A DNA stretch of 64,000 bases from Phycisphaeraceae bacterium. GTDB lineage: Bacteria; Planctomycetota; Phycisphaerae; Phycisphaerales; Zrk34. Shown piece by piece: positions 18,604-22,902 of the stretch. The notes under the pieces were generated by a model that ran no database searches, was not told the origin of the DNA, and saw nothing but the letters and a program-made list of their open reading frames with translations. The stretch is from positions 62,001 through 126,000 of the forward strand of contig JANQHD010000009.1 of NCBI GenBank assembly GCA_028282805.1. Reading direction: 5' to 3'. A program made the position numbers and the translations under genes. The first letter of the stretch is position 1; every line of letters starts with the position of its first letter.

Positions 18604-19939
<1,336 letters not shown>

Positions 19940-19963: not shown

Positions 19964-20001
19964 AAAGCCCACCCATGGCCATGGGTGGGCTTTATTTATT
20001 T
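19964..20001 (+). terminator. Intrinsic terminator of gap (perfect palindrome)
   Basis: A perfect 30-base palindrome at 19964-19993 (left arm AAAGCCCACCCATGG) is followed by ATTTATTT. The same 30-base palindrome recurs after rpoD at 44674-44703. Confidence 0.9.
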
Positions 20002-20089
20002 GTGCAGTCATTGCGTGCAACAAAGCATCGGTACGCCGTCTGGTACGGTAAACAAACACACCGCTGGGCCGCCCATTCTGGAGACACGC

Positions 20090-20434
20090 ATGAAACGCCT
20101 TGCCACCGCCCTGTTGCTCACCGCCCTGCTCGCCGGTTGCCAGACCGCCAACAAGCACGCCAACCTGACCGCCGACGACCACATTGTCGGTGGCGGCTAC
20201 GCGATCGAGTTCACCGCCCCCTTCGCCGGCACCGCGATCCTCGTCGACAACTCGACCGGCAAGTATGTGGCCACGAAGTCCATGGAAGCCGGCGACGATT
20301 TTGAGATGTCCCTCGACCCCTCGGAAGAGCACGTCCAACAGTTGCTCGGCGAAGACCTCTCAAGCACCAACCTGATCCTGTACTTCGTGCCCAATGAATG
20401 GGACGATGAATCGGCCTATAAATCAGCCGAGTGA
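20090..20434 (+). CDS. Small hypothetical lipoprotein
   Basis: The ATG at 20090 follows GGAG (20080-20083) and starts MKRLATALLLTALLAGCQTANKH, a textbook lipoprotein signal peptide with lipobox LAGC; the product is 114 residues. The mature part is acidic (VGGGYAIEFTAPFAGTAILVDNSTGKYVATKSMEAGDDFEMSLDPSEEHVQQLL). I recognise no named family. The in-frame stretch upstream to 19985 lies in the gap terminator and is rejected. It is probably anchored in a cell membrane; function unknown. Confidence 0.75.
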   Translation: MKRLATALLLTALLAGCQTANKHANLTADDHIVGGGYAIEFTAPFAGTAILVDNSTGKYVATKSMEAGDDFEMSLDPSEEHVQQLLGEDLSSTNLILYFVPNEWDDESAYKSAE

Positions 20435-20469
20435 GACACACGCCAAGCGCGTTCACAAGCACCCCGAAC

Positions 20470-20528
20470 AGCCGGCGGCATACCTGCCGCCGGTTCCGGA
20501 AGCGGCGCCTGTAAGGTGCCGGCTACCG
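20470..20528 (+). repeat. REP-like two-hairpin repeat, copy 1
   Basis: A 59-base element made of two hairpins: CCGGCGGCA-TACC-TGCCGCCGG (20472-20493) and GGCGCC-TGTAA-GGTGCC (about 20504-20520). A second copy of identical length lies in opposite orientation at 61429-61487. The first 31 bases match at 30 positions, and the second stem is conserved as structure rather than sequence. It lies between the convergent lipoprotein and GH16 genes and may also act in termination. Confidence 0.75.
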
Positions 20529-20539
20529 TTGGTGCATGC

Positions 20540-21364
20540 TTACTCGACCGGTTTGTAGAACCGGAAGTAGTCGTAGTACGCGACCGACTGCTCCGGCTGC
20601 TTGTCGCACCACTTGGCGGCGATGGCGGTGAGCCAGACGTTGACCATGTCGTGGGTGAACTGGTCGGCCGGGTATTCGCCGACCTGCGTCACCTCGCCGT
20701 CGACGTAGAACGTGACGGCCTGCTCGTCCCACTTGAACGCGTAGGTGTGCCACTGGCTGGCGTCGAAGCCCTCGATCTTCGTGTGGTCCGCGGGCGGCTT
20801 GGGGCGTCGGCCGAACTCCTTGCCGTCGGGCTTCCAGATGATGATGTGCTGCGTGAACTGGTTGTAGTCCGGGTCGGCGTTCTCGTAACAGTCGATCTCG
20901 GTCCGGCGGATGTCGGGGTACGTGGTCGACACGTGGCCCTTGTCGTTGCCGACCGCGGCCATGGCCCAGAACGCGTGGTGCCAGCCCTCGTCAACTTTGC
21001 CGTCGTTGTCGTGGTCGACGCCGTCGCCGAGCTTGGCGCGCACCTCGTAGTAGCCGTAGCGGAACCGCTCGCGGGTGACGATGCCGGCGCCGGAGTTTCT
21101 CTTGCCGGCGATGGGTTGGTCGTGCCTGTTCAACGACAGCACGAGCGAACCGTCTTTGACCGACACGTTTTCCGGCAGTTGCACCGAGCGGTGCTTGTTG
21201 TCGGCGCGGTAGTACCAGCGGTCGGTGTCGAGCTTGTCGCCGTCGAACTCGTCGGCCCACGCGAGTTCGTAGCCCTCGGGTGCAGCCGGCGGGTCGGCGA
21301 TCGAAGAGCAGGCGGAAGCCGCGGCGAACAACGCGGCGATCAAAACGAAGTGGTGAAAACGCAT
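20540..21364 (-). CDS. Secreted glycoside hydrolase family 16 enzyme
   Basis: This 274-residue protein starts MRFHHFVLIAALFAAASACSS (lipoprotein-type signal) with AGGAGA before the ATG. The GH16 jelly-roll opens with YELAWADEFDGDKLDTDRWYY. The catalytic motif ExDxxE is seen as EIDCYE (Glu about 156, Asp 158, Glu 161). The stretch RFRYGYYEVRAKLG...GWHHAFWAM and WHTYAFKWDEQAVTFYVDGEV are family landmarks. GH16 enzymes cleave laminarin, agarose, porphyran or carrageenan; the extra DGVDHDNDGKVDEG loop could bind calcium. Substrate is undecided, but the sulfatase neighbours suggest algal glycan. Its start codon lies 33 bases after an intrinsic terminator of the candidate RNA upstream, so its own promoter is not obvious. 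Confidence 0.92.
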   Translation of the reverse strand: MRFHHFVLIAALFAAASACSSIADPPAAPEGYELAWADEFDGDKLDTDRWYYRADNKHRSVQLPENVSVKDGSLVLSLNRHDQPIAGKRNSGAGIVTRERFRYGYYEVRAKLGDGVDHDNDGKVDEGWHHAFWAMAAVGNDKGHVSTTYPDIRRTEIDCYENADPDYNQFTQHIIIWKPDGKEFGRRPKPPADHTKIEGFDASQWHTYAFKWDEQAVTFYVDGEVTQVGEYPADQFTHDMVNVWLTAIAAKWCDKQPEQSVAYYDYFRFYKPVE

Positions 21365-21396
21365 AACGAGTCTCCTGTGGTGAGCACCCCATTATG

Positions 21397-21438
21397 CAAA
21401 AACAAAGACGCACCGTGCAAATGCGACACGGCGCGTCT
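21397..21438 (-). terminator. Intrinsic terminator closing the candidate large RNA
   Basis: On the minus strand 21426-21438 and 21406-21418 pair over 13 bp (with two G.U) around a 7-base loop. The run TTGTTTTT follows immediately. It lies 33 bases before the GH16 start codon and 10 bases after the proposed closing helix of the RNA. Confidence 0.88.
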
Positions 21439-22655
21439 GTATTTGCGTGCTGCTTCGGGCAGCCCCGACTTCTCGTTCCCGCGTTTGTCGAACCCGTCAG
21501 GGCCCGGCGATCGCGGGGCGGTCTTTGAAACACGTGATCTCGGCAGGCGTCCCCGCCTTACCCAGTGCACGGTGGGCGCGTCGAGCATTCCAAGACTGTT
21601 CCACGACCTTTGGCCAAGGCCGCGTGACGTCCCTCTGAGCTGCACCGATCCCATAAGGCCCATGGTTTCACCCGCCACCCCGTCGGGTGCGCGAGATACC
21701 TCGGTCATCGATGCCGGCTTGTGCACCCGGTCGCCGTTTGTGTCGGGTGATCAAACCCGACGTTGACCTGTACCCGTGCGCCGCCGCCCGCTTACGCGAA
21801 CGGTGCGCCGTGGCCTGGGGCCCGGCCGACCGAACGTGCCAGTCGCAATGCCATCTGCGGGAACCGCCGGCCCGGTCCGACCTAGTTGAACGCGTTCGTC
21901 GTCGCGCGGCCTTTCAACCACGCTGCGATCCCGTGTTCGCCGAATCGGGGGCGCTTCTCGCAGACGCACTGCCCTCAGTCCGTCCGCCCGTGGCGATGAG
22001 GTTTCCCGGCCAAGCCCGTAGGCCCGCCCGTTTCACCGCCCGGTCTCGAACTGGAACACCTCAAGTCCGACCGACCTCACCCGCCGCTGCTCGCGCCGCG
22101 TTGGATGTTGGACCGATCAAACCGCTGTGGTGATCCCGGGTTCGCTCAGCTTGGTGTCCCTCCGCCGCAAGCGGCCGAGTTCGTGTCCATAGCCGATCTT
22201 GATTCCGGGATTGGCCCGTGCGCCCGTACGGCTTTCCTTTGGGGCCTCGGCTCTTCCAAGCCTTCGGCCCACCGCCGGTGCGCCCGGCATCGACACCGCC
22301 GGTCGATCGCTTGCGTGCTTTGCCGCTTGCGTCCGCTGCCAGCGCTTTCGCGGTGGGCTGCGACGTCAAACGTGCGTCAACCTGCGCGGTGCCGCCATTC
22401 ACAGCCCCGCACTCGGCCTCGTCGACCGACAACCAACGGGGGTTCTCGGCCGCTTGTGCTCGCGTGCGGGCGATGGTTACGACGGGGTTTCGCTCGCCGT
22501 GCGACGTCAAGTCCCTTTCGGTCCACTTGCGCGTCTTGCCGGTTCGCTACCCGGGTTTCCCTGGGAATCCCGTCGTTTCTCGACGTGTGTTTCACATGTC
22601 AAAGACCATCCGATCAGACGAGGCTGCCCGAAACAGCAGGCATGAAATGAACTGA
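21397..22655 (-). ncRNA. Candidate large structured non-coding RNA (about 1.25 kb), class unknown
   Basis: No convincing protein gene covers this stretch. All three plus frames stay open over about 22218-22645 simply because stop triplets are absent, and no frame shows a domain. On the minus strand the ends 22619-22638 and 21448-21467 can form a 20-bp closing helix with two G.U pairs. Many local hairpins follow: 22508-22529 (GAAA loop), 22339-22356 (GAAA), 22164-22175 (CUUG), 21963-21984, 21904-21923 (8 bp, GAAA, three G.U), 21784-21803 (8 bp, GUAA, two G.U), 21742-21761 (7 bp), 21602-21624 (9 bp, two G.U), 21545-21558 (GGGA). The G.U pairs would be A.C mismatches on the plus strand, so the RNA is on the minus strand. 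A promoter-like sequence precedes it and an intrinsic terminator ends it. It does not match rRNA, RNase P, tmRNA or group I intron cores that I can recall. Transcription is inferred. Confidence 0.65.
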
Positions 22656-22664
22656 CCAAAGCCG

Positions 22665-22692
22665 AATCTAACGCACGCCCCACTGGGCTCAA
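22665..22692 (-). promoter_or_regulatory. Candidate promoter of the large RNA
   Basis: On the minus strand, -35-like TTGAGC (22687-22692), a 16-base spacer and -10-like TAGATT (22665-22670) each match the consensus at four of six bases. They place a start near 22655, about 17 bases before the closing helix. The rest of the gap up to 22902 holds only a small GGCG/CGCC hairpin near 22771-22786. Confidence 0.4.
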
Positions 22693-22902
22693 AACGAAAA
22701 ATCGACTATTTGCCCGACTTGTGAACAAGCGGTGTCGATTGTGCATAGCGGTGGAAAAGTTGTCGCGCTAAGGCGTCGAAACGCCGCGCCGCACCACACT
22801 AACCGACGGGATCGGCAGGTCGTTTTAGGCCATCGATTTACGTGTGGCCCGCGCCGCCATGCGATCCGTTTTCCCCGGGCGATCGGCGTGCAGTGACCCG
22901 AG

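Follow-up and report, generated by a model that had tools for sequence, protein, structure and literature searches.

The question raised by this locus is whether an intergenic gap of 1.26 kb in a planctomycete genome harbours a large structured RNA, as had been proposed in a preliminary description, which named homologues in related genomes and covariation among the checks to be made. The window, i.e. the whole stretch of 64,000 nucleotides that was analysed, is situated on contig 45 of a 3.9-Mb Phycisphaeraceae genome, and the neighbours of the gap are a GH16 gene, two YkgJ-type genes and a histone-deacetylase-family gene. The candidate RNA gene, ~1.25 kb in size, would run from right to left on the minus strand, from start to terminator (21398-22660), and its sequence occurs once in the genome. 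The minus strand gave an MFE of -648.7 kcal/mol compared to -564.6 +/- 7.1 kcal/mol for 24 dinucleotide shuffles (z = -11.8), against a z of -4.6 for the plus strand (dinucleotide shuffles), and three homologues gave z values of -12.5, -10.7 and -7.2. Together with the homologues, the covariation measured against controls and the differing open reading frames, described below, this bears out the proposal of a large structured minus-strand RNA, and we put the probability that 21398-22660 encodes a genuine class of structured RNA that had not been catalogued before at roughly 90%, judged from sequence comparison.

A search of 101 genomes (the own genome and those of relatives) at the DNA level produced six matches, all of them short except for the window itself. 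Upon re-alignment, locus L008 (genome G003, same family, E ~1e-15) and locus L007 (G066, another family, E ~1e-18) turned out to be homologous over most of the RNA. L009, L010 and L011 (G073, G001 and G052) were discarded as short matches that lacked the remainder of the RNA. With R1, a covariance model built on the 3' core, the RNA was located in G692, in G412 and in seven species of the genus g300. Tracing the upstream YkgJ gene within the own family revealed the RNA directly after YkgJ in G007, where the model had missed it. R3, a short model of the core, then confirmed the G007 copy and added a further one in G008. R3 matches below ~33 bits looked like background, and matches were accepted only at 36 bits or more, with the flanks read. 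Because models R1 and R2 at a strict filter missed G007 and G008, which were recovered by synteny and R3, a single genome without a model match cannot be taken as reliably lacking the RNA. The pattern matches L012 and L015 were judged to be chance, as were L016, L040, L041, L055-L058 and L095-L100. The RNA was thus traced to at least 14 species of Phycisphaerales in 8 genera and 3 families; the copy in G618 is truncated at a contig end.

The complete RNAs, eleven of which were taken end to end, measure 764-1379 nt, where the 764 nt of G412 stops at the closing helix because the G412 terminator was not identified. Conserved segments are found at each end, in one central element (21978-21845) and in the 3' third (21715-21534), and the middle is variable. 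The interior hairpins named in the preliminary description are present, although most of the GNRA hairpins among them fall in this variable middle. The 11-base repeat TTGACGTCGCA at 22500-22510 and 22359-22369 is real. Two further repeats were seen at homologous loci: in G007 a long inverted repeat, CACTGGCGGCTTGTCCGCCAGTG, is located just downstream of the RNA (L077 1865-1930), and at L008 8952-9048 the MIR2600 model matches both strands below its cut-off, presumably reflecting a long inverted repeat.

Covariation was assessed in an alignment of 11 RNAs taken end to end, and helix P3 and the core hairpin were rechecked in 13 homologues. The controls were made by sliding one strand by 1-3 columns, which retains kinship; the correction for phylogeny is only partial, and seven homologues are from one genus. 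All elements described here are on the minus strand. The 20-bp closing helix P1 is exactly as claimed earlier (5' strand TGCTGTTTCGGGCAGCCTCG, 22638-22619, with 3' strand CGGGGCTGCCCGAAGCAGCA, 21467-21448). Double compensatory changes were found in 17 of its 19 aligned pairs, 93% of the cells in 11 homologues were paired, and the covariation score was 0.606 versus 0.047-0.185 for the slid controls. The 3' domain showed double changes in 21 of 32 pairs, was 90% paired in the 11 aligned RNAs, and scored 0.507 versus 0.073-0.135 for the slid controls. Within this domain, a three-helix arm (21640-21715; GGCAUCGAU...GAUCGGUGCAG, apical loop CCGACGG near 21682) carried double changes in 16 of 18 pairs. 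In the core hairpin GGCGGGGACGCCUGCC (21557-21542), 76 of 78 cells were paired in 13 homologues and 15 were double-change cells; its stem reads GUGUUG/CAACAC in G008 versus GGCGGG/CCUGCC in the window. The 5' end is linked to the 3' core by a long-range helix, P3 (5' strand CGUCGAG, 22579-22585; 3' strand CUCGACG, 21579-21585), in which the 3' strand was the best partner of the 5' columns across the full alignment, with 73 of 77 cells paired. When extended to 13 homologues, 87 of 91 P3 cells were paired, including 10 double-change cells, which was matched by none of 2000 partner shuffles, a control that ignores kinship. A conserved central motif, CTGAGGGCAGTGCGTCTGCGAGA (21956-21978), contributes the 5' strand (21972-21966) to a 7-bp helix whose other strand is GCAUUGC (21851-21845); in this helix all 77 cells were paired and 5 of the 7 pairs showed double changes.

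A probable additional helix, P2, was read by eye from the alignment and may pair GUGA (22592-22595) with UCAC (21537-21534); the corresponding strands are GCGA/UCGC in G412 and GAUGA/UCAUC in G445, with one mismatch in most of g300. The fourth helix proposed by RNAalifold, a 3-bp GCUC/GAG pairing that together with P3 would form a pseudoknot, is unproven because it never varies. The covariation that had been named as a check was strong against the controls in P1 and the 3' domain, and present in P3 and the central helix as well, and it shows the predicted fold to be closed and multi-branched, the two ends of the molecule being anchored to the conserved 3' core.

A promoter-like sequence precedes the RNA (22692-22665, minus strand), composed of a -35 hexamer TTGAGC (22692-22687), a spacer of 16 bp and a -10 hexamer TAGATT (22670-22665). 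Equivalent hexamers are found at the same place in G003 (TTGAGG-17-TTTAAT), G692 (TTGCAC-16-TTTAAT) and most members of g300 (TTGCNN-17-TATYAC). A promoter scan at 9 of 12 consensus positions found none at the RNA gene; the promoter-like sequence reported earlier is present, and a similar hexamer pair is in register in most homologues, but it is weak by consensus. The intrinsic terminator described 10 bases past the closing helix was also found (21438-21398), with a 13-bp stem (21438-21406) followed by TTTGTTTTT, and terminator hairpins with T runs end most homologues too. From these in-register hexamers and terminator sequences we infer that the RNA probably forms its own transcription unit. 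Most of genus g300 (L034, L035, L037-L039) has an extra conserved hairpin, with GGGGGAGGAGAGAAGAAG after it, between closing helix and terminator, which are absent from the other families.

What could such an RNA do? It would be transcribed from its own promoter, stopped at its own terminator and folded as one closed unit, in which P1 would join the two ends, and P2 and P3 would place the conserved 5' segment beside the conserved 3' core. A multi-branched interior of variable length would then result in RNAs of 764 to 1379 nt. We consider the most likely role of the RNA to be that of a structural scaffold, in preference to a coding function or to cis regulation of a neighbouring gene.

Two or more copies of this scaffold might join through the loop of a core hairpin (GCCCACCGUGCACUGGGU, 21560-21577) that contains the palindrome GUGCAC. 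This palindrome is there in all 14 homologues, and the RNA is therefore predicted to self-pair by a kissing loop, a pairing that lacks covariation support because GUGCAC is invariant. There are precedents for such a contact. Symmetric palindromic kissing loops contribute to the association of GOLLD and of OLE, in whose dimer such a loop is present, and high conservation also marks two more symmetric kissing loops, one set of contacts being in GOLLD and ROOL (PMC12286853). GUGCAC is, moreover, one of the three prevalent HIV-1 dimerisation loops (PMC5874298); the palindromic hairpin loop shared with the HIV-1 dimerisation initiation site is a one-loop analogy between unrelated molecules. A second GUGCAC is present in the window at 21726-21721, within GUGCACARGCCGGCRUCG, and occupies this place only in the own genome, G003 and G066, where it could pair with the loop GUGCAC inside one molecule. 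It is absent from seven of the eight other complete RNAs, which leaves the loop GUGCAC no such intramolecular partner in these seven, and G445 has two. At the place of this second GUGCAC the f3 homologues have a CUUGCCAAG hairpin. We tentatively suggest that two or more RNA copies may join via the GUGCAC loop. That an RNA-only dimer or larger complex formed in this way would be a further natural homo-oligomeric large RNA class is a more doubtful proposition, and a protein or another RNA is an equally conceivable partner for the loop.

A protein partner is the essence of the alternative that survives best, in which the RNA would form the core of a ribonucleoprotein together with a protein of Phycisphaerales, and which differs from the scaffold reading only in cargo. 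The conserved short motifs UCUUUGACA, GAGGG, GGGUAAG and GAGAUCA could be protein sites, and OLE RNA with OapA and OapC provides a precedent (PMC9723947). However, no gene was a constant neighbour across the carrier families, a Ysc84-like gene adjoining the RNA in some g300 species and a mandelate-racemase-family gene in G066, and therefore no candidate partner protein is indicated. We regard a ribonucleoprotein as a possibility to be taken seriously, though not as the favoured one.

An RNA of phages or mobile elements, as GOLLD and ROOL are, would fit the patchy distribution, as only four of the nine genomes of the own family carry the RNA and most of the order is without a match. G001, which belongs to the same genus as the window, has no RNA, and its YkgJ gene is followed after ~70 bp by a convergent GAPDH gene. 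Given this clean absence, the RNA is dispensable in G001, and either the G001 line has lost it or other lines have acquired it. At the syntenic site in G001 (L075 2630-2710), YkgJ and GAPDH converge around a GCCCCGCGCG/CGCGCGGGGC hairpin. The exact core pattern matched nine times among 84,980 bacterial and archaeal species, and all nine records were titled Phycisphaerales, Phycisphaera, Phycisphaeraceae or Planctomycetota, while model R2 found nothing outside Phycisphaerales in the sampled 397 genomes of the class and 294 of the phylum. Against a mobile origin, neither the 50,697 phage records nor the 72,556 plasmid records searched contained a match, and carriers have one RNA copy per genome. 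The sole IMG/VR match to the core pattern, L051, is a chance match with the rest of the RNA missing, and a second viral pattern found nothing. Furthermore, the neighbours are ordinary chromosomal genes that are conserved between genera, with the YkgJ-RNA order preserved in G003 and G007, and one tRNA is situated 2.7 kb away; the phage carriage that marks GOLLD and ROOL was not found here. A mobile RNA is therefore improbable, and the scaffold is better seen as a chromosomal gene product.

The position of the GH16 gene, which shares the strand of the RNA and has its start 34 bp downstream of it, would be compatible with the RNA being a long leader that controls GH16 in cis. However, the strong terminator intervenes and the downstream genes differ among the homologues, being convergent GAPDH in G003 and different again in others, and for these reasons a leader is very unlikely. 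Compared to G003, the window has GH16 and a small unassigned gene between RNA and GAPDH (19985-21364).

Just as unlikely is a diverged copy of RNase P, tmRNA, a group II intron, OLE, GOLLD or ROOL, despite the similar size and closed architecture. A permissive scan of 21365-22902 with Rfam 15 gave no match up to E = 1, and seven homologous loci gave no relevant match up to E = 0.5, where the only matches were a tRNA and chance matches to miRNA models outside the RNA core. The whole window contains a single Rfam match, a tRNA at 18604-18677, 2.7 kb from the RNA. In addition, class A RNase P is encoded elsewhere in the genome in all seven carriers tested, and tmRNA above the Rfam cut-off in five of the seven. 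G692 and G412 gave no tmRNA over this cut-off, perhaps since their assemblies are fragmented. The literature searched, with many subscription papers outside its reach, contained no description of such an RNA in Phycisphaerales. The earlier remark that no known class was recognised is thus upheld: because no known RNA family matched, we regard the class as new, and descriptively its kind is that of OLE, GOLLD and ROOL. The last explanation, a decayed or unrecognised protein gene suggested by open reading frames of 100-280 codons in the homologues, has a negligible probability, as the longest frames differ in strand, frame and length, in agreement with the earlier claim that the gap has no credible protein gene, and the compensatory changes track base pairs.

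With OLE, GOLLD and ROOL the preliminary description had drawn a likeness, of which the layout holds and nothing beyond it. Like the new RNA, OLE is bacterial, large and intricately folded and stands alone, but it is ~600 nt and occurs mostly in Bacillota (PMC9723947, PMC12054373), and the new RNA has neither a match to the OLE covariance model nor a constant protein neighbour. GOLLD is often >800 nt, with a conserved 3' region, a less conserved 5' region and symmetric kissing loops (PMC12286853), and thus resembles the new RNA in its large size and conserved 3' region. However, its genes are carried by phages or prophages and are often close to tRNA islands, whereas the new RNA is chromosomal and does not match the Rfam GOLLD model. 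ROOL is also a large, ornate RNA, and its inter-subunit loops are conserved, but it is borne by phages or prophages, measures 659 nt in the solved example and has no match in the new RNA. In descriptive terms the new RNA is a large structured noncoding RNA, compensatory changes showing that its secondary structure is conserved.

Few bacterial RNAs outside ribosomes, introns and RNase P are this large and complex, and three recently solved large bacterial RNAs are dimers or cages (PMC12286853). A class of ~1.2 kb with a natural 764-nt form in G412 and a genome of the same genus that is without the RNA makes a tractable system for studying the function of such RNAs. If the kissing-loop reading is true, it would be a homo-oligomeric large RNA that is encoded as a chromosomal gene of planctomycetes.
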